From assembly GCA_019636285.1 (NCBI GenBank), contig JAHBXV010000003.1:62001-126000 (forward strand): a DNA stretch of 64,000 nt. The letters run 5' to 3'. The stretch's first letter is position 1; each line of letters begins with the position of its first letter. The notes beneath the pieces were generated by a model. That model saw only the letters and a program-made list of their open reading frames with translations. It was not told where the DNA came from and made no database searches. The DNA is from Planctomycetaceae bacterium (lineage in GTDB: Bacteria > Planctomycetota > Planctomycetia > Planctomycetales > Planctomycetaceae). Made by a program: the position numbers and the translations under genes. Positions 17,416 to 30,843 of the stretch are shown piece after piece.

Positions 17416-17612
17416 GTTTGTTCTCCGGTCGGGGGAGTTGCGTGTTCATTCTGCCGGAGATTGTCGGCGATTGCTCCAAGACGGGCATGAATCGTTGTCG
17501 ATAAGAAACAGTAGACTGGAAATCGGCAGCGGATTTTTGTGGCGTCTGATTGCCTCGCCTGGGAAAAATCAACGGTTTCACCCGCGATACAACCTGCCGA
17601 GGAGCCACGCCC

Positions 17613-18947
17613 GTGCCAACATCGACCAGCCACATTGAAACGGCCTATTCGCTGGCACGCGATCGATACGGTGAATTGGGCGTGGATGTCGATGCCGCGT
17701 TGCAAAGACTTCGGGATGTCTCGCTGTCGCTGCACTGCTGGCAGGGCGACGACGTAGCCGGCTTTGAAGGCGGAACCACTGAGATCGGCGGAGGGCTCGC
17801 AGTCACCGGGCGCTATCCGGGCCGGGCACGAACCGTCGACGAACTTCGCGACGACCTCGATCAGGCGTACCGGCTGATTCCCGGAAACCATCGACTGAAT
17901 CTGCACGCCAGCTACGGCGAGTTCGGGGGACGCCAAGTCGACCGCGACGAAATCTCGATCGAACAATTCCAGGGCTGGATCGACTGGGCCCAAGAACGCT
18001 CGCTGGGACTGGACTTTAACCCCACGTATTTTGCCCATGAACTCGCCGACGACGGGATGACGCTCGCTCATCCGAATCCCACGATTCGAGACTTCTGGAT
18101 CCGGCACGGCCAGGCCTGTCGCCAGATTGCCGCCGAAATGGGCAGGCAACTCGGCTCGCCCTGCGTCAACAACGTCTGGATTCCCGATGGCATGAAGGAC
18201 ACGCCGGTCGATCGAAAAGGACCGCGCGAACGCCTGGTGGCCGCGCTGGACGAGGTCTTCGCGGAAACCTTCGCCTCGTCCGATTTGCGGGACGCGGTCG
18301 AATGCAAACTGTTCGGCCTCGGGTCCGAGAGTTATGTCGTCGGTTCGCACGAATTCTATCTGGGCTACGCGTTGTCGCGCGGAAAACTGGCCTGTCTGGA
18401 TGCCGGGCATTTCCACCCGACCGAGACCATTGCCGACAAGATCTCTTCGGTGCTCTGCTTCACCCCGGAAATCCTCCTGCACGTCAGCCGCGGAGTCCGT
18501 TGGGATAGCGACCACGTTGTCATTCTCGATGACCCGGTCATCGCGATCGCGCAAGAACTCGTCCGCGGCGACTTCCTCGGACGTGTGCATCTGGGACTCG
18601 ATTTCTTCGATGCCAGCATCCAGCGCGTGGCGGCCTGGGTCGTCGGCGCTCGCAGCATGCTCAAAGCGCTGCTCGCTGCGTTTCTCGAACCCATTGCACG
18701 CCTGCGCGAGGCAGAATCGACCGGCGACTACACGACGCGCCTGGTTCTCCTCGAAGAACAAAAGCTGCTGCCCGTGGGGGCCATCTGGGACTACTACTGT
18801 TTGACGCAGGATGTCCCCACTGGAATCGCGTGGCTCGAAGACGTCCGCCGTTACGAACGTGAAATCCAACAGGCCCGCCAGTTACCTCCGCGCGTGCTCA
18901 ATGCTCAAGTTGCCAGTGAGACTTCTTCGATCGGAATTGAGCGGTAA
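17613..18947 (+). CDS. rhaA: L-rhamnose isomerase
   Basis: It interconverts L-rhamnose and L-rhamnulose, the first step of rhamnose breakdown, using divalent metal. The 444 residues form a TIM barrel. Diagnostic stretches are [13 protein letters not shown] near the start, [10 protein letters not shown], the metal-site HEFYLGYA region, and DAGHFHPTE. The GTG at 17613 is chosen because GAGGAG lies 9-10 nt upstream; the frame is open to 17550. No rhamnulokinase, aldolase or microcompartment shell genes are adjacent, so the rest of the pathway must lie elsewhere. Planctomycetes often use rhamnose from algal polysaccharides, which fits the gene. Confidence 0.93.
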
Positions 18948-19113: not shown

Positions 19114-20025
19114 ATGCGGGACGTGGCGGCCGAACCGTTTGTTTATGAATTCAGCCGTCTGCTGCCGCCCCGCTGCGAAATCGCTTCGGGGCAGACTCTG
19201 CGCGTCGAATCCGAAGACGCCCTGACGGGTCAGATTCGCCATCCTGGCGATCGGCGTGACAAGTCAGCCGTTCCGTACAGCAATCCCGTGGCTGGTCCGA
19301 TCGTCGTTGCGGGAGCCATGCCGGGCCACCAGTTGGCAGTGACAATTCATTCCATCGAGCCGCGCGATGGACAATGCGCGACCTACACCGGGTCTCCAAA
19401 ACAGTTGACGGAATGGCTGGGCTCCGACGTTCCGCACGGAGCCCATGTCTGCCCGATTCGTGACGGTGAGATTCTCTGGAAAGACAAGGTTCGAATTCCC
19501 TACGCCCCCATGCTGGGCTGCATCGGAACCGCGCCAGACTGGGGAACGCCGTCCACCGGTCCAGCGGGACCGCACGGTGGAAATCTCGATCTGGTTGAAG
19601 TCTGTCCGGGCAGCACGATCTTTCTGCCGGTCACGGTCCCCGGTGGCTTCCTCTATCTGGGCGATGCACACGCCGCGATGGGACATGGCGAACTCTCGGC
19701 GACCGGGCTGGAAATGGCTGCATGGTCAACTATCACAGTGGATCTGGTGACCTCGCCCAAAGTTTCCGGCGTTCGCGTCGCGAATCCTGACTTTCTCATG
19801 TGTGTCGCCACGCACGGCAGCACCGAGCGGGCCATTGCCGAAGCCTACGCCAGGCTCATTCTGTGGCTCGAAGCCGAGTTCCAGTGGAATCGCTGGGACG
19901 CGTATGACCTTCTCACGCACGTCGGCCAGATTTCGGTGGGCTACTATGGCAGCGGAACGGTTGGGGCGCGAGTCGACAGGCGTTATGTGAGCGACCCGCC
20001 CGGCGGCCCATCGGTGACAAGATAG
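19114..20025 (+). CDS. Acetamidase/formamidase family amidohydrolase
   Basis: A cytoplasmic hydrolase of the FmdA/AmdA family, which releases ammonia from short amides such as formamide or acetamide. Family hallmarks are the Gly-rich GTAPDWGTPSTGPAGPHGG-type loop, the GDAHAAMGHGELSATGLEM motif (metal-binding Asp/His and Glu), and the LLTHVGQISVGYYG stretch near the C-terminus. About 303 residues, near family length. The ATG at 19114 is preferred because a GAGGG element lies just upstream and homologues begin near here; a GTG at 19090 is also in frame. It is the first gene of a tight plus-strand run that also encodes a dimethylformamidase-like enzyme, so amide metabolism is the likely theme. 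Confidence 0.88.
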   Translation: MRDVAAEPFVYEFSRLLPPRCEIASGQTLRVESEDALTGQIRHPGDRRDKSAVPYSNPVAGPIVVAGAMPGHQLAVTIHSIEPRDGQCATYTGSPKQLTEWLGSDVPHGAHVCPIRDGEILWKDKVRIPYAPMLGCIGTAPDWGTPSTGPAGPHGGNLDLVEVCPGSTIFLPVTVPGGFLYLGDAHAAMGHGELSATGLEMAAWSTITVDLVTSPKVSGVRVANPDFLMCVATHGSTERAIAEAYARLILWLEAEFQWNRWDAYDLLTHVGQISVGYYGSGTVGARVDRRYVSDPPGGPSVTR

Positions 20026-20067
20026 TTCGTATTTCCTGGCGCGGGTGCCCCTTTCGGAAGAGCATGC

Positions 20068-21387
20068 ATGACGCCGCCAGCGGCCGGGTCTCTGCTTCCC
20101 ACCACCGAACGACAGCTTTTTTTGTCGCGCTGCGGAATCCTCCTGCTCTTGGCATCGGCGGCTGCCATTGCCTATCTGACGCGACATTGCCTCGCGGTCG
20201 CCAACACCACGATGCAGCGTGAGATCGGCCTGACGAACGAAGAGTTCGGTTACCTCTATAGTGCATTTTCGCTTGGCTACCTGATTTGTCAGATTCCCGG
20301 CGGCTGGCTCGGGCAACGGATCGGTGTCCGGGCGGCGCTACCCATTCTGGCTGCTTTCTGGGCGGCCATGACGTGCGTCACCGCGCTGGTGACGTCACTT
20401 CCGGCGCTCGTCGCCTCGCGGTTTTTCTTCGGCCTGGCGCAAGCTGGGCTGGTCCCCAACCAGGCACAGGCGGTGCGCAACTGGATCCCTGATTCGGCCC
20501 GCGGCCTCGCAAGTTCGGTACTGGTGGTTGCGATGTCGGCGGGGGCGATCGCGAGTTTGGCGCTCACCGGGCTTCTGATGAAGACTTTTCCCTGGCGGAC
20601 GATCTTCATCGCCTATGGCGCAGCCACGCTCGTCTGGTCGATTCTCTTCTGGCTGACATACCGGGATACACCACCCGCGCGTTCAGCGCCACCTGACGAT
20701 GGTACTCCAGGCAAGAACGCCCCTCCCGCCGCCTTGAAGATCGGCTTGCCGTTACTGGTCGTGCTGACAAGCGCGGGCGTCTGGGGGCTGTCCCTGCAAG
20801 CTCTGTTCAAGACAGCCGGCTATAACTTTCTCGTGACGTTTCTTCCGACATTTCTCGAATACGCCCACGAAATGCCGACCGAGAAGACGGCTTCGCTGGC
20901 CTCCTGGTCGCTGCTCGCTGTGATGATGGGATCGCTGCTCGGAGGAATTCTTGTCGACTACATTCAACGCCTCTCAGGAAGAAAGTGGTGCAGTCGTTGC
21001 GTTGTGGGTTCTGGAGCGATGGCCCTGACGGCCGGCGCACTGTTCTCCGCGACGCTGTGTTCGACCGCTACGACCGTGGCGCTGGTGATTGCCGTGGCAT
21101 CATTCTTCTCGGGCATTGGCGGCGCCCCTCCCTGGGCGGCAACAATGGATCTCGGGGGCCGCGGTGCCGCCGTCGTCATGGGCATGATGAACAGCGTTTC
21201 TGCCTTCGCGGGGATCATCATTTCGCCGCTGGTAGGCCGAATGATTGACTGGATTCGATTCAACGACGGCAACTGGTCACTGGTCCTCTGGGTTCACGCG
21301 GCGTTCTACCTGCTCTCGGCGGCCAGTTGGATCCTGGTCCGTCCCGATCATTCGCTCGATAAATCGGAGGCTGCTCATGCTGGTTGA
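20068..21387 (+). CDS. MFS transporter, anion:cation symporter type
   Basis: A 12-segment inner membrane transporter of 439 residues. The pattern resembles the ACS family (hexuronate, galactonate, phthalate permeases): RHCLAVANTTMQREIGLTNEEFG in and after helix 1, GGWLGQRIGVRAAL in loop 2-3, and FFGLAQAGLVPNQAQAVRNWIPDSARG after helix 4. A longer loop with Pro residues separates helices 6 and 7. It starts 42 bp after the amidase gene and overlaps the next gene by 11 bp. It presumably imports the acidic substrate of this operon; hexuronate- or sugar-acid-like compounds are the family norm, but the actual solute is unknown. Confidence 0.88.
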   Translation: MTPPAAGSLLPTTERQLFLSRCGILLLLASAAAIAYLTRHCLAVANTTMQREIGLTNEEFGYLYSAFSLGYLICQIPGGWLGQRIGVRAALPILAAFWAAMTCVTALVTSLPALVASRFFFGLAQAGLVPNQAQAVRNWIPDSARGLASSVLVVAMSAGAIASLALTGLLMKTFPWRTIFIAYGAATLVWSILFWLTYRDTPPARSAPPDDGTPGKNAPPAALKIGLPLLVVLTSAGVWGLSLQALFKTAGYNFLVTFLPTFLEYAHEMPTEKTASLASWSLLAVMMGSLLGGILVDYIQRLSGRKWCSRCVVGSGAMALTAGALFSATLCSTATTVALVIAVASFFSGIGGAPPWAATMDLGGRGAAVVMGMMNSVSAFAGIIISPLVGRMIDWIRFNDGNWSLVLWVHAAFYLLSAASWILVRPDHSLDKSEAAHAG

Positions 21388-22273
21388 TACGCACACCAAC
21401 TTGATGTGGTATCCCGAACATCTGTCGGATGAATTCGTCGAGTTCGCCTGGGAGGCCAAGCGGGCGAAGATGAAGCTCTCGACCGACGTCTACTTCGCCG
21501 GGGCTGACAGCCAGGCGAATAACGCTTTTGACTCGCGTCCGGAGCAACTTCTCGCCGCAACGAGCGAGGCCGACAAGGTTGTCGTCTTCGGCATTGTGGC
21601 ACCCCACAGCGGCATCTACGCCGACCAGGAACTGATCGCGCGGTTCGTCGCCGAACACTCCGACCGATTCATCGGCTGGTGTTCCGTCGATCCGAATGAT
21701 CCCGACTGCGTGCGACAATTGGAATACCGCGTGAAAGAACTCGGCCTGCGCGGTCTGAAGTGCTCACCCATTTATCAGAACTGGGACCCTTCGGACCCGA
21801 AGCACCTGCCGCTGTTCAAGAAAGCCGAAGAGCTCAACATCCCCGTGAACATTCACCAGGGGACGACATTCGTTCGCCCGGGACCGCTCAAGTACGCGAA
21901 CCCCATTCTGCTCGAAGACATGGCGATCGCCTGCCCCAAGCTGAGAATTGTCATCGCCCATATGGGGCATCCCTGGGAAACCGAGTGCGTCGTTCTCATC
22001 CGCAAGCACCCGAATCTGTACACGAATGTTTCCGCGCTCCATTATCGGCCTCTCCGGCATTACCAGGCATTCATGACGGCCATCGAGTATGGTGTCGAGC
22101 ACAAGCTGATTCTCGGGTCGGACTTTCCCTCCGCGACGCTGGCCCAGGTCATTGCCGGACAATGGAAGGTCAATCGCGTCATCGAGGGAACGCACTTTCC
22201 ACGCGTGTCGGACGAGATCATTCACAACATCATTTACGAGAACTGGCGTCGATTTCTGCCTGAGTACGAGTAA
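21377..22273 (+). CDS. Amidohydrolase-family TIM-barrel protein
   Basis: A 298-residue member of the amidohydrolase_2 family (relatives include ACMSD-type decarboxylases and lactone hydrolases). The first metal motif, normally HxH, reads DTHTNL, so the second His is Asn. Later ligands look present: NIHQG, IAHMGHPWE and GSDFPS. The ATG at 21377 has CGGAGG 6 nt upstream and overlaps the end of the transporter gene, giving translational coupling. It may hydrolyse or decarboxylate an intermediate of the operon pathway. The altered metal motif may change chemistry rather than abolish it. Confidence 0.82.
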   Translation: MLVDTHTNLMWYPEHLSDEFVEFAWEAKRAKMKLSTDVYFAGADSQANNAFDSRPEQLLAATSEADKVVVFGIVAPHSGIYADQELIARFVAEHSDRFIGWCSVDPNDPDCVRQLEYRVKELGLRGLKCSPIYQNWDPSDPKHLPLFKKAEELNIPVNIHQGTTFVRPGPLKYANPILLEDMAIACPKLRIVIAHMGHPWETECVVLIRKHPNLYTNVSALHYRPLRHYQAFMTAIEYGVEHKLILGSDFPSATLAQVIAGQWKVNRVIEGTHFPRVSDEIIHNIIYENWRRFLPEYE

Positions 22274-22343
22274 TCGTCCCGTTCGCGACAATAGGCCGTG
22301 ATTCCATTTCGAGTTTCCGAGTCCTGACGAAAGTTTTGCCAAG

Positions 22344-23264
22344 ATGAATTCCGCTCCGATCACCCCTGAATTGCTGGCTGGCTCCGTGATCTCCGTCCCG
22401 CCGTTGGCCCGGTCAGCCGATCTCACGATCAACACTGCCGAGAACACCAAAATCATTCGCCATCTCGAAGCCGGGGGCGTCACGACGCTGCTCTACGGCG
22501 GCAACGCCGCGCTGGCTCATGTGTCGCTGTCGGAATACGGCAAGCTGCTGGGCTTTCTCGCGGAGACGGCCGCTCCCACGTCCACGGTCGTGCCGTCGTT
22601 CGGACCAACCTATGGCCTGGCCATGGACCAGGTCGGCGTCCTCAAGGAATACGGCTTCCTCACGGTCATGCTGCTTCCCAGCCGCGAGGCAACAACGCCT
22701 GCCGGCATTGCGAACGGCGTGCGGCGGCTTGTCGAGCGTCTCGGGCGTCCCATCGTTCTCTACCTCAAGCACGATGGCATGGTGGACGTCGCAACGACAG
22801 CCGCGATGGTTAAGGATGGGCTGATTTCCTGGATCAAATACGCCATCGTCCGGCCCCGCGCGGCGGACGATACGTTCCTGAAAGATCTGGTCGCGGCCGT
22901 CGGACCGCAAATCGTGGTGAGTGGCATGGGCGAACAACCGGCCATCATCCACTTGCGGGACTTCGGGCTGGTGGGATTCACTTCCGGCTGCGTCTGCGTC
23001 GCCCCGAAGCTCGCAATGGATCTCTTGCGGGCGGCAAAGCAGGGCGACTTCGAGGCGGCCGAGCGAATTCGTGAACAATTATCCCCACTCGAGGCCCTGC
23101 GCGACGGTATCAACCCCGTTCGCGTTCTTCACGCGGCCGTCCAACTGGCAGGAATCGCTGAGACGGGACCAATCACCCCATTCTGGTCCGAAATCTCTGC
23201 CAGCGACGAGGGACGAATTTCGGAGGCAGCACGTGCCCTCCTGGCGCTGCAGAACCGGGCATAG
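22344..23264 (+). CDS. DapA-superfamily aldolase/lyase of unknown specificity
   Basis: A 306-residue TIM-barrel protein resembling dihydrodipicolinate synthase and the keto-deoxy sugar acid aldolases. Lys165 in SWIKYAIVRP is at the Schiff-base position, and Tyr140 in IVLYLKHDG is near the catalytic tyrosine. The usual GTTGE pyruvate loop reads LYGGNAAL, so binding of the keto acid may differ. The gene lies 70 bp after the amidohydrolase gene in the same run. By analogy to known pathways it could cleave or dehydrate a 2-keto-3-deoxy acid; this is inference. It is not a dapA housekeeping gene on present evidence. Confidence 0.82.
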   Translation: MNSAPITPELLAGSVISVPPLARSADLTINTAENTKIIRHLEAGGVTTLLYGGNAALAHVSLSEYGKLLGFLAETAAPTSTVVPSFGPTYGLAMDQVGVLKEYGFLTVMLLPSREATTPAGIANGVRRLVERLGRPIVLYLKHDGMVDVATTAAMVKDGLISWIKYAIVRPRAADDTFLKDLVAAVGPQIVVSGMGEQPAIIHLRDFGLVGFTSGCVCVAPKLAMDLLRAAKQGDFEAAERIREQLSPLEALRDGINPVRVLHAAVQLAGIAETGPITPFWSEISASDEGRISEAARALLALQNRA

Positions 23265-23279
23265 GCGCACGTGACGCCG

Positions 23280-23306
23280 TTAGCCGCCAGGCATCGCCGA
23301 GCGTTC
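23280..23306 (+). repeat. Dispersed 3'-end repeat, copy D
   Basis: TTAGCCGCCAGGCATCGCCGAGCG-type sequence 15 bp after the DapA-like gene stop. It matches copies at 26228, 54383 and 61688 with substitutions in the centre, keeping the left TAGCCGC and right GAGCG ends. Confidence 0.6.
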
Positions 23307-23349
23307 TTTCTTTTGACTTGAACAAAAATTCGCGGCAACGGAGGGCACG

Positions 23350-24984
23350 ATGCTGGTCGGTTACGTGAGCGACGAACAGTACGTCGCTCTCTGCGATGTC
23401 CTGCTGGAGTTCGAGCAGGGCGGTGACATCCAGGCGATTGTTCGCTCGTCGCCGCGCGGTGCGGTCCACGTCGATCTTCCTGCGGGGGAATATCGAGTGA
23501 CGCTCGTGAAACAGGGATATGGTTCCAAGCGCTCGACGGTGACTATCGGAGCAGGGCCCCCGCACCAGTTTCGACTGCTGTCCGATGGAATCCTCGGCTA
23601 CGTCTGGCCCCGTGAAGTCGTCACTGGCGGACGTTCGGAATTCCGCATTCATGCGACGGAGCCGTATCGCCTCTCGCTTTGGCGATACGGCTGGAAGCGC
23701 GAATTCGTTCGCCTGCTGGGCTGGTTCGACGAACACGGTCCCCGGGCGAATCAGCAGATCGTTCCCGACGGAGATTTCACGCAAACCGGTGCGTTCTGGA
23801 ACCGTGTCGGCTACGGCAGCGCGCATCACACGCAATTCGTGACGGGGCCTGAACGATCGGGGTTGTACTATCTGCACGCCAAGGGCGAAACCACCGGAAA
23901 GTTCTTCTCCTTTCCCTGGGTTGTCGCCCCCAGTCGTCCGACGGCACCAATCGCAGTCGTTGCTTCGACTAATACCTGGCTGGCGTACAACAATTTCGGC
24001 GGGCGAAGCAACTACGTCAATGCCGCCAGCCTTCCGCCCACTCCCACCGTCAACGCGCGGCAAGACTTGTTGCGGTACACGGCTGCCGGCTCATTCAATG
24101 AATGGGGCTTCGCCGACTCCGACTATCAACCCCTCTCCTTCGAACGTCCGGAACCCGGCAATTGTGTCCGTGAAGACGAGGAAGTGACCGACCCCATCGA
24201 GGGGCGGCTGCCCTGCGGCATGGCCCCTGCGGAATGGCGGCTCCTGGGGTGGCTCGAACGCGAGGGCTGCGCTTACGACTATTACTCCGAACGCCAGTTG
24301 CACAATGGAACGCTGGACCTCGACCAATATCGCATACTCATCATCAGCGTTCATCCCGAATACTGGTCGCGCGAGATGTACCAGGCGGTGAAGAGCTGGG
24401 TCTGGGAACGTGGGGGGAAGCTGATCTATCTCGGCGGCAACGGCCTCAACTGCGAGGTCGAATTCCTGGACGAGCACCGGCTGCGTTTCCGGACGCACCT
24501 GAAACCCAGCGAAGGGGGTGCATTGGGAATGCCCGACCCCGACAACCCAGACGTTTACTTCGAAAGCCGCATGCACCGAACGCTGGAATCCGAAGCGAAT
24601 CTGCTGGGCGTCGTCTGTACCGAAACCGGCATCATGACGGCTGCCCCCTATCGGGTTGTGAAAGCCGATCATTGGGTCTTCTCCGGCACCGGTCTCGCCG
24701 ATGGCGACGTCTTCGGCGAGAAGAGTCTTCATGAACGCGTACATGGCGGCGCGAGCGGTCACGAGACCGACAAGATGAGTAAGAATTCGCCGCCCGGTAC
24801 AGTGCTGCTGGCTAAGGGACTCAATCGTGATGAGGGCGGAGCCGAGATCGTGCATTACGAAACCGCCTCCGGCGGCGCGGTCTTCTCCGTCGGCTCAATC
24901 ACCTACGTCGCATCGCTCCTGGTTGATGATGCCATCTCCCGAATCACCTCCAACGTCATCACAAAGTTCCTCGCCAATCACTAA
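23350..24984 (+). CDS. N,N-dimethylformamidase large-subunit-like protein
   Basis: A 544-residue protein resembling the large subunit of N,N-dimethylformamidase, an iron enzyme that hydrolyses amides. An N-terminal all-beta region (1-195) precedes a Rossmann-like domain. Candidate iron ligands are Tyr213 (LAYNNFGG), His335 and Glu337 (SVHPEYWS), matching the Tyr / His-x-Glu set of the characterised enzyme in order. WVWERGGKLIYLGGNGL follows as in the family. No small-subunit gene is visible. The GTG/ATG choice is simple: ATG at 23350 with CGGAGGGC upstream. It sits between the DapA-like and PLP genes. The substrate is unlikely to be dimethylformamide itself; a natural amide is more plausible. 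Confidence 0.82.
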   Translation: MLVGYVSDEQYVALCDVLLEFEQGGDIQAIVRSSPRGAVHVDLPAGEYRVTLVKQGYGSKRSTVTIGAGPPHQFRLLSDGILGYVWPREVVTGGRSEFRIHATEPYRLSLWRYGWKREFVRLLGWFDEHGPRANQQIVPDGDFTQTGAFWNRVGYGSAHHTQFVTGPERSGLYYLHAKGETTGKFFSFPWVVAPSRPTAPIAVVASTNTWLAYNNFGGRSNYVNAASLPPTPTVNARQDLLRYTAAGSFNEWGFADSDYQPLSFERPEPGNCVREDEEVTDPIEGRLPCGMAPAEWRLLGWLEREGCAYDYYSERQLHNGTLDLDQYRILIISVHPEYWSREMYQAVKSWVWERGGKLIYLGGNGLNCEVEFLDEHRLRFRTHLKPSEGGALGMPDPDNPDVYFESRMHRTLESEANLLGVVCTETGIMTAAPYRVVKADHWVFSGTGLADGDVFGEKSLHERVHGGASGHETDKMSKNSPPGTVLLAKGLNRDEGGAEIVHYETASGGAVFSVGSITYVASLLVDDAISRITSNVITKFLANH

Positions 24985-25028
24985 CTGCTAACCACCAACC
25001 ACTCTCTTCTCTCCCCCAGAGCCACCCG

Positions 25029-26231
25029 ATGTCCGCCGCCAAGCCCTTCGCCGTTCGACCGATCATCAATGCCCTGGGAACATTCACTCGCGTCGGCGGC
25101 AGCCTGATGCCGGCCGAAGTGCTCGACAGCATACGGGAGGCCGCAGGGCACTTTGTCTGCCTTGAAGAACTACAGGCCGCAGCCGGACGCGAAATTGCCC
25201 GGCTGCTCCAGGCTGAGGCCGCTTACGTCACGTCGGGAGCCCAGTCTGCTCTCGTTCTGTCCGTCGCGGCCTGCCTCACGCGATTGGATGCGGCTGCCAT
25301 GGATCGGCTTCCGCGTACGGATGATCGTCCCAACGAAGTCCTCATAGCGAGTTTTCATCGCAACCATTACGACCACGCGATCGAGGCTGCCGGGGGGACG
25401 ATTGTCACCGTCGGTTCGGAAGAAGATTGCCGTCCCGAAGATTATGTGGCGGCGATCAACGATCAAACCGTGGCCATCCTGTATCTTCCCTGGCGCGAGG
25501 ACCGTCTCTCCTTTGCAGACGTTCTTGAAGTCGCCCGTCGGCACTCGATACCGCTCCTCGTTGATGCCGCCGGGGCCTGCGACGATCCACGCAATCTCAC
25601 GCGATTTTCGGCTGCGGGGGCCAATCTCGTCTGCCATAGCGGCGGGAAACACATCCGTGGCCCACAATCTTCGGGCATTGTCTGCGGCGATCGCGACCTG
25701 ATCTCCGCGATTGCCTGGCAGCATCTCGACATGGACTTTACGCCTGAAGTCTGGACCGCGCCGCCGGAGTTACTGTCGGCGGATCAACTGAAGTTCGTCC
25801 CAAGACAAGGCATCGGCCGGGGCTACAAAGCCGGCAAGGAAGAAATTCACGGACTCGTCACGGCGTTACGACTGTACTTCGAGCGCGATCACGTCGCCGA
25901 AAAACGCGAGGCCCGTAGAAAGCTCGATGCGATCGCTTTCCAACTCTCCGATATGCCAGAGATTTCGACATCTCTGACGCTTCCTGCGACACCGGACTCC
26001 GGGTTCCCAACCCTGACGATCACGATCGATTCCGAACGCACGGGTCTGACCGGTATCGACTTCATTCGCGCCCTCAAAGCTGGCACTCCGTCGATTCACC
26101 CCGGCGAACGCAAACTGGCAGAACATGCCGTCGTCATCCATCCCTTCAATCTGCAACCCGGCGACGAAACGGCCATCGTCGCAAGAATTCGCGAGATCGT
26201 CCTGCAATCCCGTCGTTTACGAAACGATTAG
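25029..26231 (+). CDS. SelA-like PLP-dependent enzyme (D-glucosaminate-6-P ammonia-lyase type)
   Basis: A fold-type I PLP enzyme of 400 residues in the SelA/DgaE group. Lys207 in CHSGGKHIRGPQSSG is the cofactor lysine and Asp179 in LLVDAAGACDD binds the PLP nitrogen; YVTSGAQSALVLSVAAC holds the phosphate. It is not selenocysteine synthase: it is shorter than SelA and no sel genes are nearby. DgaE-type members eliminate ammonia from amino sugar acids to give 2-keto-3-deoxy acids, which would feed the DapA-like aldolase encoded two genes upstream. That link is inference from gene order. It starts 44 bp after the amidase-like gene. Confidence 0.85.
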   Translation: MSAAKPFAVRPIINALGTFTRVGGSLMPAEVLDSIREAAGHFVCLEELQAAAGREIARLLQAEAAYVTSGAQSALVLSVAACLTRLDAAAMDRLPRTDDRPNEVLIASFHRNHYDHAIEAAGGTIVTVGSEEDCRPEDYVAAINDQTVAILYLPWREDRLSFADVLEVARRHSIPLLVDAAGACDDPRNLTRFSAAGANLVCHSGGKHIRGPQSSGIVCGDRDLISAIAWQHLDMDFTPEVWTAPPELLSADQLKFVPRQGIGRGYKAGKEEIHGLVTALRLYFERDHVAEKREARRKLDAIAFQLSDMPEISTSLTLPATPDSGFPTLTITIDSERTGLTGIDFIRALKAGTPSIHPGERKLAEHAVVIHPFNLQPGDETAIVARIREIVLQSRRLRND

Positions 26232-26251
26232 CCGCGACCCAACGGGGAGCG
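26228..26251 (+). repeat. Dispersed 3'-end repeat, copy A (overlaps a stop codon)
   Basis: A 24-bp sequence, TTAGCCGCGACCCAACGGGG followed by AGCG, identical to the copy at 54383-54406. Its TAG (26229-26231) is the stop codon of the PLP enzyme gene. Confidence 0.85.
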
Positions 26252-26357
26252 TTGCCTCTCCCCACCGACGATCGTTGACAACCCTCACGTCGAATCGGTC
26301 AACTGACATTCGTCTCTCCGCCCAATCTTCGTCCCTCATTTCGCCAAAGTTTGCCCG

Positions 26358-27146
26358 ATGTCTCTCAATGCTGCCGAATCGTCCGCAACCGGCGCTGCCG
26401 ATCATCGACTGGCAGTTTTCTCTCACATCGATCCCCATGACATGGCTTCGCTCCTCCACGAAGTCATCGGAATCCTGCCGCTCGATGGTGTGATCGCGGC
26501 GAAGGAAACGCCCGGGCTCATCGCTCGCCCCATGACGCGCAGTCAGGCCGACCAACTCGTCCGCCGGCTTCATGACGAGGGAATCAGTTCATACGCAATC
26601 CCTGCCAAGTCGCTTCCCAGCCTCGCGAACGCCACGCTACTCCATCACGTTCAGGTGTCAGACACCGGCCTCACCGTTTTGAACCTTTATGGCGAAGTCG
26701 ATGAAATGATTCCGTGGGCTGCGATCGGTGTGATTGCCATCGGACAGTTTCCGGCCGAATCGAGCCTGCATGCAATTGACGAAACACGCCCCAGCGTCCT
26801 GTCAGCAGCGCCACTTCCCACCGCCTGGACAACCGACGCCGGTCATCGCAGCGCCCTCGAACTGTGGCTACTGGCTCGCATGTCCGATCGTCTGTATTGC
26901 ATCCGCCACGACCGATTCAACTATGAGTCGCTCGGCGAAGAAATGTCGGACTCTGCAACCGTGAACTTCGACCACTTCGTGCGTCGAATCATCCCGTTCG
27001 CCCTGCATGCCGCGCAAACACCGTCGACCCATGCCTACCTCGCGAAGTCGCTGGTCGGGTATTCGTTCCCTGACCAGGCGGCACTCGAACGACAGGCCGT
27101 CCTGAACTGGGTGATGCGCCGAGCGGCGGAAAACCAGGAATCCTAA
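26358..27146 (+). CDS. Hypothetical protein, last gene of the amide operon
   Basis: A 262-residue soluble protein not recognised as any family. It lacks membrane segments and Cys-rich motifs. The first ~90 residues (HIDPHDMASLLHEVIGILPLDG, then RSQADQLVRRLHDEGISSYAI) resemble an alpha/beta regulatory module of the ACT-like or DUF2007-like sort, since they describe reading through a limited set of paired positions; this is only a shape impression. The middle looks like a PH-like beta barrel (VLNLYGEVDEMIPWAAIGVIAIG). It follows the PLP gene by 126 bp, with a repeat between, so membership in the operon is probable but not certain. Confidence 0.7.
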   Translation: MSLNAAESSATGAADHRLAVFSHIDPHDMASLLHEVIGILPLDGVIAAKETPGLIARPMTRSQADQLVRRLHDEGISSYAIPAKSLPSLANATLLHHVQVSDTGLTVLNLYGEVDEMIPWAAIGVIAIGQFPAESSLHAIDETRPSVLSAAPLPTAWTTDAGHRSALELWLLARMSDRLYCIRHDRFNYESLGEEMSDSATVNFDHFVRRIIPFALHAAQTPSTHAYLAKSLVGYSFPDQAALERQAVLNWVMRRAAENQES

Positions 27147-27174: not shown

Positions 27175-30100
27175 TCACTCCGGCGCGAGGCTCGGATCGA
27201 GCCCCAGTGTTCCTCGGAGACGGGCCACGTAGTCCGGCGACGCAACGTCGGCGATTCGCCGCTCCGTGGCCGCGAGCCGCTCGCGAACCGAGCGCGCCAG
27301 GACCGAGCTCTCGGATCCGCGCGTTTCCAGGAACCTCGCGAGCGAATCGTGATGCCGCTGCAACAGCCGCTCATCGGCGCGTTGCTGCGTTTCCAGACGC
27401 TGCCGATACCAGTCGCTCTCCAGTAGAGCTTCCAGCGTGAACATCCGCCGAAACTCGGGGTCGCTGGCGTCGCGGCCTTCAAAGCTGCCGTGCGCGAGAA
27501 TGGTCAGCAATGCCTTCAGAGGAGGGCAGGCATCGTTGATCGTTTCGTCCTCGAAGTATTGCTTCGCGACCCGTTTCTGAGCGTCGGTGATGTTTTCGAC
27601 GCCCTCGACAAAGCAGGTGAGATCCTGAGTCTCCGGGCGAAGAAACGCCTCATCGAACACTTGCGCGGGATGATCGAATACCCGCCCCAGAAAGGTTCGC
27701 ACGAACTTCGACGTGATTCGATATCCCAGCCGACTGGCAAGGATCGTTCGCCCTTCGTGCTCGAAGTCCTTCAGAGGTTCGAGGTGCTCGTTCGCGATCA
27801 GAAACGCGGGATCGCGCTCGGCCGGCTCCAGCCGGCACCAGACCTCGGGAATGAGCAGGGAAATGTCATGATCGACGCGCAGATTCGGACCGATGTACCC
27901 AGCCGCGGTCGAGAATCCTCCCAAGCCGGTCAGAATGTAGGAGACCAGCGCCGCGTTGAGATCGACGATCGGCCGCAAGGCATTGAACGGCGCCTTCGTG
28001 AGCGCTCCTTCCGAACCGGCACCTGTCGTCGAAGGACTCTTGCCCGTCAACGAGCAGATGAAGTCCATGAACAACTCGGGTAGTTCCTGGTAGTGAATCG
28101 GCCCATAGACAGCCAGCGCCCGAATCCCGGCAGCCGCGTCCGGCGGATTGTTGCGCCGACCAACCAGCACGGAATTCACGGGGATGGTCAATGGTTGATC
28201 GGCCGAGAGGGCACGGGCCAACCGCATGCCGCGTTCCGCCACATACTTCGGAAACGGATCGACCAGATCGGGGCGCAACTGCAAGTAGCGCGGATTCTTG
28301 CTGGGCTTCCCGTCCACCAGACGCGGATTGGCTGAACAGACGACATAACCGGTCCGCGATTCCGCCGCCGACTTGAGAATCTGCTGCATCGGTGGGGTGA
28401 AGTCTTCAAAATCGGTCACTCGCGAGACGATCGCGCGGGCCTGATCGGCCGACAGAGGTTCGAAGTTCGACAGGAAGTTGTCGTTTCGTCCGAGGTCGGC
28501 TTCCGTCTGCCGGTCCAGCCCCCGATGAACGGCATCATCCGGACGCTGAAAGAGCCGCGCCTCGCAATTCTCGGAAAACTTGTAGCTGAACGCCCGCGGT
28601 CCGGGGGGCAGTGGATCCAACCGCTCCGCCGGAACCACCAGCGACGCCGTAATGTCGTCTTCGGTCTGAACCTTGGCCGCCGCCGCGAAGTCCTGCCGCA
28701 GCTTGAACGTCCGCCAGTCCTGGGACGACAGCAGCCCCACGCGCAGATAGGTTCCCACAAGTTTGCGGCCAAATGCCTTCAGCTCATGACCGGAGTGACC
28801 GTTGATTGAATCGACCCCGAAGAGATCGCGCCAATGCTTCAAGTCTTCGAGGGGCACGAACCGTTTGATGATGAACACGATCGGATAGATGTGATTCGGC
28901 AGACTCGCCAGCCAGTTGTTGTAGTCGTCGGTGTAATCTTCGGAGGGCGTCAGCAGTTTGATGACGCTGCCGAGCGATCGCTGCGGGCTCAAGACGCCGC
29001 GACTCGGTCGGGCCGCATAGTCGGGACCGCATCCTGGCTTCCAGCGGGTCGAATAGTCGCGATCAAAAATCTGCTGCACGAGATCAAAGTCGTGGTCCTT
29101 GTCCGCCACGAAAATCGGCCCATACAACATATAGTCGCGCAGGTTCTTGGAGATTTCGCTCTTCCCACCTCCGCTCACGGTGCAGGGCTTATGGCAGAAG
29201 ACACCGCTGGCCCGTGTCCCGATCAGTCGCCAGCTCGCCGCCCCTGGATGCTTCTCCAGCCGCACCTTGTAGCCCGATGGGGTCATGTAGACCTTGTCGA
29301 GTTCCAGCGGGACCGCGAACTCGTGACCGTCGTGCTTCCACCAGACCTGTAGCCGCGCGACACTCGCCTTGGCATGAGCCGGAATGTACACAAGATTGGG
29401 AAACAGCCGATCGACCGCGTAGCCCTCCGGTTTCAGGTCGATCGAGTCGCGGCAATCCCAGGCCAGATCGTCGAGCGTGCGGTCGTTGATCGTGTAGCTG
29501 CTGGCGTCGAAGTCGTTTCCCAGGTTGTAACTGGCAAAAGCCAGGGCTCCGCCCGCGTGCTCTTCTTCTGCCTGACCCGAAAGGTTGGCCGCGTACGAAA
29601 TCTGTGTTTTGACTTCTTTCTTGCAGTAGCCGTAATAGTTGTCGGCGATCAGCGTGACGATGACGCCGGCTTTCGATCGGCACGTCAGCTTGAAAGCGCC
29701 CCCTTCGTTGTATTTCTCGATGGGATCTTTCCAGCACATACCGTCGCGGCGCTGGCGGTCTGTGGCCTGATCCCAATGCGGCAGCCCCAGTTCCTTCTTG
29801 GTCAGCCGGACGAGGTGTGGGGCCAGGATCACGCAGCCGGTGTGTCCCGACCAATGTTCCACGTCCAGCGCCGCGTCATTCTCGGCCAGCCGAGGGTCAC
29901 CGGCGTTGCCGAAAATCGACTCGACGAAATCGAGATTGCTGATGAGGCTGCCGGGAACGAAAAAACGTGTCTCCATGGTGCGCGCCAGCGACACCCCGGG
30001 CACTTCCGGAGAAACCAGCGGCCGCAAATGCAGCGATACGAACGCATGCAGCGGACATTCGCGGTGCACCGTGAAGGGAATCGTCGCGAGGTCTGCCGGA

Positions 30101-30585
30101 GGCTCGAATGCCTGCTTGAAAAGCCGGGCAAAGACTTCGCGCGGGACCGACTTCTTATCGACGGGAACCGGCAGCCCTCCTTCGGCGACATGGAATGTTC
30201 CCGCTGTCGTCCGTCGATCACTGCGCGGATTGTGCAGAACCCCGTTACGGATGCGATACGAGCGAACGTGCGGATTGCTGAAGCTGTCACCCACCTCGGG
30301 AAGCGAAAGTTCCCTGGCGATTCCGTGCCGCGAAAGGACGATCGTTTCCGAGGGCAATGACAGAGGATGTGCTAGCTCAAGGTCCGCGAAATACTTGGCG
30401 AGAAAGGCCTCGATGCGCTCGTCGATCGGACACTTCAGGGCGGCGTTCTCTTCTTCCAGAGCCAGTTTTTCCTGCCGCTGCTCGGTCTGTCGCACTACTT
30501 CCGAAGTCAGGCGAAAGGTTTCGGCATGCCAGTTCTGATCGGGTGAGTGAACATCGGCAATTCCAAAACGGCTCTGTACGTTCAT
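27175..30585 (-). CDS. Large conserved protein, possibly PPi-type PEP carboxykinase
   Basis: A 1136-residue soluble protein with no signal peptide or membrane segment. Length and several Gly-rich loops fit the PPi-dependent phosphoenolpyruvate carboxykinase family (about 1100-1200 residues), which converts oxaloacetate and pyrophosphate to PEP: KPCTVSGGGKSEISKNL in the middle and SLTGKSPSTTGAGSEGAL near residue 870. A helical region near 30-60 (VRQTEQRQEKLALEEEN) is a probable coiled coil. I recall the family only in outline, so the call is tentative. The ATG at 30585 has GGAGG upstream; the frame is open to 30687. The gene is single and converges with the amide operon, leaving 28 bp between stops. 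Confidence 0.5.
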   Translation of the reverse strand: MNVQSRFGIADVHSPDQNWHAETFRLTSEVVRQTEQRQEKLALEEENAALKCPIDERIEAFLAKYFADLELAHPLSLPSETIVLSRHGIARELSLPEVGDSFSNPHVRSYRIRNGVLHNPRSDRRTTAGTFHVAEGGLPVPVDKKSVPREVFARLFKQAFEPPADLATIPFTVHRECPLHAFVSLHLRPLVSPEVPGVSLARTMETRFFVPGSLISNLDFVESIFGNAGDPRLAENDAALDVEHWSGHTGCVILAPHLVRLTKKELGLPHWDQATDRQRRDGMCWKDPIEKYNEGGAFKLTCRSKAGVIVTLIADNYYGYCKKEVKTQISYAANLSGQAEEEHAGGALAFASYNLGNDFDASSYTINDRTLDDLAWDCRDSIDLKPEGYAVDRLFPNLVYIPAHAKASVARLQVWWKHDGHEFAVPLELDKVYMTPSGYKVRLEKHPGAASWRLIGTRASGVFCHKPCTVSGGGKSEISKNLRDYMLYGPIFVADKDHDFDLVQQIFDRDYSTRWKPGCGPDYAARPSRGVLSPQRSLGSVIKLLTPSEDYTDDYNNWLASLPNHIYPIVFIIKRFVPLEDLKHWRDLFGVDSINGHSGHELKAFGRKLVGTYLRVGLLSSQDWRTFKLRQDFAAAAKVQTEDDITASLVVPAERLDPLPPGPRAFSYKFSENCEARLFQRPDDAVHRGLDRQTEADLGRNDNFLSNFEPLSADQARAIVSRVTDFEDFTPPMQQILKSAAESRTGYVVCSANPRLVDGKPSKNPRYLQLRPDLVDPFPKYVAERGMRLARALSADQPLTIPVNSVLVGRRNNPPDAAAGIRALAVYGPIHYQELPELFMDFICSLTGKSPSTTGAGSEGALTKAPFNALRPIVDLNAALVSYILTGLGGFSTAAGYIGPNLRVDHDISLLIPEVWCRLEPAERDPAFLIANEHLEPLKDFEHEGRTILASRLGYRITSKFVRTFLGRVFDHPAQVFDEAFLRPETQDLTCFVEGVENITDAQKRVAKQYFEDETINDACPPLKALLTILAHGSFEGRDASDPEFRRMFTLEALLESDWYRQRLETQQRADERLLQRHHDSLARFLETRGSESSVLARSVRERLAATERRIADVASPDYVARLRGTLGLDPSLAPE

Positions 30586-30843
30586 ACTTGCCTCCGGCGA
30601 GCAACTTCTGTCGCGTCGCCAATGCATGGCTGAGAGAAAATGGAGGTGGATCGGGACTGGCGCGAACTGGCTGGCCGAGCGATTCAATCAGACTCGCCAA
30701 TCCGGGGGCGAGCGTAACCGAGTCAGGGACGACTCGACAACTTCACCGGGAGTCTATTCACAAGTCCTCGAAAATCCAGGCGCGCCGCCGAGGCCAAAAA
30801 GATCGAGCCTCAGAGAATCCCGCCGGATTCCCTCACGAAAAAT

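Follow-up and report, generated by a model that had tools for sequence, protein, structure and literature searches.

On balance, the first six genes of a seven-gene run in a Planctomycetaceae bacterium are likely to belong to a modular cassette that serves the catabolism of a small acidic molecule carrying an amide or N-acyl group. The cassette comprises about eight genes for enzymes and transport, whose combinations vary from genome to genome. The first five, FMD, MFS, AMH, DAP and DMF, are well-supported members of this cassette, and their linkage is far beyond chance. The run lies in what we call the window, the whole stretch of 64,000 nucleotides that was analysed (assembly GCA_019636285.1, contig JAHBXV010000003.1, positions 62,001 to 126,000 of the forward strand). 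Gene content, conserved linkage, a second locus in the same genome with two more members (KEL and MLE), and the conserved or altered active-site residues were established directly. The initial annotation had described seven plus-strand genes with small gaps or overlaps, and the seven open reading frames were verified, with spacings of 42, -11, 70, 85, 44 and 126 bp:

19114..20025, plus strand: FMD, FmdA/AmdA-family protein (303 aa, short), putative amidase; Pfam FmdA_AmdA, 89 bits; cassette member
20068..21387, plus strand: MFS, ACS-type (anion:cation symporter) importer; MFS_1, 160 bits; cassette member
21377..22273, plus strand: AMH, Amidohydro_2 enzyme (Pfam), ACMSD/LigI/LigJ-like; best conserved of the cassette genes
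22344..23264, plus strand: DAP, divergent DapA-family TIM barrel, predicted Schiff-base lyase/dehydratase; Pfam DHDPS, weak, 28.8 bits
23350..24984, plus strand: DMF, N,N-dimethylformamidase-like, predicted Fe(III)-tyrosinate amidohydrolase; DMFA2_C, 198 bits
25029..26231, plus strand: DGA, SelA/DgaE-family PLP enzyme; Pfam SelA, TIGR01437 200 bits; occasional member
26358..27146, plus strand: gene 7, planctomycete protein whose N-terminal domain is predicted to be ClpS/L7-L12-like; unlikely to be a member

The general family labels given earlier were confirmed by Pfam and NCBIfam at the family level, with scores below the functional cut-offs. The NCBIfam scores of these window genes were all below the curated cut-offs, and the NCBIfam profile search gave no match for AMH, DMF or gene 7. 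Within the run, terminator- and promoter-like sites were no more frequent than in shuffled sequences. The run stops at a convergent gene on the minus strand (27175-30687), a 1170-aa open reading frame with no Pfam match. Upstream, at a distance of 166 bp, lies rhaA (17550-18947, plus strand), a bona fide L-rhamnose isomerase gene that scores above the NCBIfam equivalog cut-offs.

With AMH as the anchor, we searched about 85,000 species genomes and obtained 80 loci with 71-87% identity, 79 of which were gene-mapped; a same-strand run was defined by gaps of at most 350 bp. The loci are mostly from Planctomycetota, with others labelled Gemmatimonadota, Latescibacterota, Poribacteria and more (labels of metagenome-assembled genomes as recorded). 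At least one partner was found in the strand run of AMH in 55 of the 79 loci, and at least three partners in 26: MFS in 25 loci, an MLE-subgroup enolase in 25, DMF in 20, DAP in 18, the kelch protein KEL in 15 and FMD in 14. Counted anywhere in the locus, DMF was present in 25/79, FMD in 20/79 and DAP in 18/79, against a chance expectation of about 0.05-0.1, computed from gene copy numbers in 59 relatives; P values are indicative only, as the loci are phylogenetically related and four of the 20 matches to FMD are weak, at 29-39% identity. The complete order FMD-MFS-AMH-KEL-DAP-DMF-CRN-MLE, in which CRN is a creatininase-family protein, was seen in two loci (L123 and L124), and FMD-MFS-AMH-KEL-DAP-DMF in two more (L111 and L119). 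FMD adjoins AMH in relatives. No recognised partner was found in the strand run for 24 of the 79 AMH genes, several of which are close to a contig end. Many homologues of DMF and DAP occur as single genes elsewhere, suggesting that both enzymes have roles beyond the cassette as well.

Because the co-occurrence counts in the 79 loci greatly exceed expectation, a chance same-strand run was rejected for the first five genes. It is very improbable that the whole is a chance run of unrelated genes on one strand: gene 7 and rhaA do share the strand and are unlinked elsewhere, but the same combinations recur in dozens of species, including records labelled Gemmatimonadota, Latescibacterota and Poribacteria. 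Thus, when gene neighbourhoods were compared, the proposal that the set travels together held for the first five genes, held occasionally for DGA and did not hold for gene 7. The seventh gene had been counted as a member of the operon, yet it was present in none of the 79 AMH loci, and its homologues (26-36% identity) are scattered elsewhere in relatives. It had no Pfam or PHROGs match, and its structural model (pLDDT 80) gave weak fold matches, with a ClpS/L7-L12-like N-terminal domain. Gene 7 is probably not a member of the cassette. A rhamnose pathway was also rejected, as rhaA was found in 0/79 AMH loci.

KEL and the MLE-subgroup enolase are recurrent members that are missing from the window. 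In the same genome, the two are encoded side by side on one strand of contig C1 (KEL, 65-68% identity; MLE, 75%). With this pair on a different contig, the cassette of this genome is split. By inspection, KEL appears to have a signal peptide and to be secreted. A sialic-acid-like pathway, suggested by KEL, was rejected as its NanM match is below threshold (20.7 bits; cut-off, 45). Also recurrent in the AMH loci are creatininase-family proteins (CRN) and DAP2, a second and more typical DapA-like protein; an amidase (AMD) and a transglutaminase-like protein recur in five. An alternative order, amidase-DMF-AMH-transglutaminase-like protein, was observed in L153, L157, L159, L160 and L168, labelled Latescibacterota or Gemmatimonadota. 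Regulators of the GntR type, usual for catabolic operons, adjoin FMD in two loci (L132, 8053-8841; L236, 9119-10129) and are candidates for the regulator of the cassette.

DGA was found in none of the 79 AMH loci, and its homologues with 40-46% identity sit elsewhere. A search of 170 genomes of the family, however, revealed closer homologues (63-70%) in eleven genomes. The nearest orthologues, from two other genera, are found in the arrangements KEL-DAP-DGA (L226) and KEL-DMF-x-DGA (L227), and in one genome (G410) DGA lies roughly 18 kb away from a complete cassette. Of the eleven genomes with DGA at 63% identity or more, nine also encode AMH at 73% or above; nine of the eleven belong to one genus, in which DGA is not beside cassette genes. 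In genus g268, the homologues adjoin genes that by eye are DUF1501- or PQQ-propeller-like. The view that DGA is an unrelated gene was dropped once the closer homologues were found beside KEL and DAP and beside KEL and DMF, and we regard it, judging from these neighbourhoods, as a genuine but occasional cassette member. DgaE-like PLP enzymes are also part of a different recurrent one-strand set (L035, L048 and L228), together with amidohydrolase/deacetylase-like, M81-peptidase-like (by eye) and enolase-superfamily-like proteins. The genome studied here has a second DgaE-like gene (35%; L046, G000:C26:66000-85000), placed between phosphotriesterase-family and amidohydrolase genes on one strand; the arrangement is similar in L045 and partly so in L044.

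In the dimethylformamidase of Paracoccus, the iron ligands are Y399, Y440 and E521, and the catalytic residue is H519 (PMC7686228). The alignment places Tyr213, Tyr243 and Glu337 of DMF at the ligand positions and His335 at the catalytic position; of 49 homologues, 48-49 share them (here and below, PDB sequences in the active-site alignments were taken from HMMER outputs). The nearest solved structures are N-acetyl-(R)-beta-phenylalanine acylase (8huy) and dimethylformamidase (6lvb), with which DMF shares the DMFA2_C domain, the Tyr-Tyr-Glu ligands and the catalytic His. DMF differs from both in its length (544 aa versus about 770), its N-terminal region, its low overall similarity (54-64 bits) and its gene neighbourhood, and nearby no small-subunit gene was recognised. 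The earlier assignment as an iron amidase is thus supported by well-preserved active-site residues, and DMF is predicted to be an Fe(III)-tyrosinate amidohydrolase. FMD had been given the final release of ammonia from formamide. Its nearest solved structure is an uncharacterised acetamidase/formamidase (5ubu, E 3e-45), and it scores 67 bits with the formamidase model NF045496, far under the equivalog cut-off of 500; a role as formamidase is not supported.

AMH had been listed as an amidohydrolase in a scheme that included amide cleavage. In the group of mononuclear-metal amidohydrolases that includes ACMSD, the metal site has a strand-1 His-x-His motif plus His, His and Asp. AMH has this fold and aligns His160, His195 and Asp249 at the corresponding positions, where they are kept, but it has Asn8 instead of the second His: His6-x-Asn8 was found in 95/95 sequences, whereas 15 paralogues have His-x-His. 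The loci of such paralogues (L190, L200, L201 and L203) showed no consistent neighbourhood. With the AlphaFold model of AMH (pLDDT 93), Foldseek returned the uncharacterised 3irs first, followed by LigJ, LigI, 5-carboxyvanillate and dihydroxybenzoate decarboxylases and ACMSD; identity to the ACMSD/LigI/LigJ group in structural alignments is 12-20%. AMH is thus closer to decarboxylases, lactonases and hydratases than to amidases, and this type of structure together with the invariant His-x-Asn makes amide cleavage by AMH doubtful.

These fold matches bear on the main rival to our reading, namely that the cassette handles an aromatic compound or a ring-cleavage product, in which case AMH would be a lactonase, hydratase or decarboxylase, MLE a cycloisomerase and DAP a hydratase-aldolase, and the amidases would process a side group. 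The best NCBIfam match of MLE, the muconate cycloisomerase subfamily (239 bits versus a cut-off of 335), points the same way; its nearest solved structure is 2p88, with further matches to muconate cycloisomerases, dipeptide epimerases and N-acylamino-acid racemases, and the MLE subgroup also includes racemases, epimerases and dehydratases. Among the recurrent neighbours, however, we recognised neither a ring-cleaving dioxygenase nor a CoA pathway, and three or four families of amide hydrolases recur (FMD, DMF, CRN and AMD). We consider the handling of an aromatic or ring-cleavage product unlikely.

In DAP, the Schiff-base residue Lys165 is kept in 33/33 sequences and Tyr140 is invariant. The GTTGE motif, which in DapA binds the substrate carboxylate, is replaced by YGGNA in all 33; in DAP2 the motif is closer to its usual form. 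DAP is therefore like members of the DapA superfamily (3D0C/3E96, 5-dehydro-4-deoxyglucarate dehydratase) in its TIM barrel, Lys165 and Tyr140 and unlike them in this motif and in its score with the NCBIfam model of 5-dehydro-4-deoxyglucarate dehydratase, 32 bits versus a cut-off of 278. With the usual keto-acid-binding motif missing from DAP, the proposed aldol cleavage of a keto-deoxy acid is not supported. For the proposed ACS-type importer, the best NCBIfam model of MFS is TIGR00893 (D-galactonate/ACS transporter), at 176 bits, below the cut-off of 395; an importer of the anion type is supported, and we would call MFS ACS-like only.

DGA has the DgaE family TIGR01437 as its best NCBIfam match (200 bits; cut-off, 385). 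It shares with DGL the SelA fold of a PLP enzyme and the aligned PLP lysine, Lys207, which is kept. The His pair and the Arg cluster described for DGL (PMC9529869), His162/163 and Arg301/332/346, are absent: the His pair aligns with Arg156 and a gap, and the Arg positions are occupied by Thr328, Gly359 and Phe373. It also differs from DGL in scoring below the family cut-offs, and neither a KDPG aldolase nor PTS genes were recognised in the cassette loci.

In the scheme of the initial annotation, an N-acylated amino-sugar acid would be imported and its amide cleaved, ammonia would be eliminated to give a keto-deoxy sugar acid, and an aldol cleavage and the release of ammonia from formamide would follow. 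The ACS/D-galactonate-type importer, a PLP enzyme of the DgaE family, the DapA fold and the weak NanM match of KEL all lean towards this sequence of steps, but DGA lacks the His pair and the phosphate-binding Arg residues of DGL and is found in no AMH locus, DAP lacks GTTGE and FMD is far from the formamidase model. The scheme is weakened because the enzymes of its key steps fail these residue tests, and we rate it as somewhat less probable even than the processing of a ring-cleavage product. What stands of it is a catabolic set with an importer and an amide hydrolase; the exact order of sugar-acid import, elimination, aldol cleavage and formamide hydrolysis is speculative, as the checks on gene 7, AMH, DGA, DAP and FMD did not support it. 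That the set is coherent and catabolic is supported by its co-travel, the anion-type importer and at least one preserved amide-hydrolase active site.

We return to our preferred reading, a modular cassette for an acidic amide or N-acyl compound. MFS would bring in the anion, which the MLE enzyme would epimerise, cycloisomerise or dehydrate. DMF and FMD would cut the amide bond or bonds, and AMH may perform a hydrolysis, hydration or decarboxylation step. DAP would cut or dehydrate its substrate via an imine at Lys165 and, in this species, DGA may take off an amino group by elimination. In some lineages, the set is extended by a creatininase-family hydrolase, an amidase, a further DapA-like enzyme or a PLP enzyme of the DgaE-like type. 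For this pathway, we infer the substrate, the order of steps and the products. No cassette member has a close homologue that is characterised, and every assignment beyond the Pfam level falls below the family cut-off. No description of the gene combination was found in open-access papers, the scope of the search, in line with the earlier remark that the combination was not one known as a described pathway; this is weak evidence.

The cassette is real, catabolic and apparently undescribed, and its component enzymes are from known superfamilies. The strong conservation of AMH (71-87% in records labelled as several phyla) and the atypical active sites suggest that it probably acts on a compound without a described bacterial breakdown. 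More tentatively, the cassette may encode an undescribed pathway that has spread horizontally among Planctomycetota, Gemmatimonadota, Latescibacterota and Poribacteria and breaks down an organic acid that is abundant and contains an amide. It would rely on an Fe-tyrosinate amidase, a new type of amidohydrolase with His-x-Asn and a DapA-like enzyme whose substrates are not the ordinary 2-keto acids; we hold this to be possible rather than likely. The conserved linkage makes the cassette directly testable. To our knowledge, the substrates with which the Fe-tyrosinate amidase family has been characterised so far are an industrial solvent and an N-acetyl-beta-amino acid; if the proposal is true, environmental bacteria would be using the family on a natural substrate, which would widen its range.
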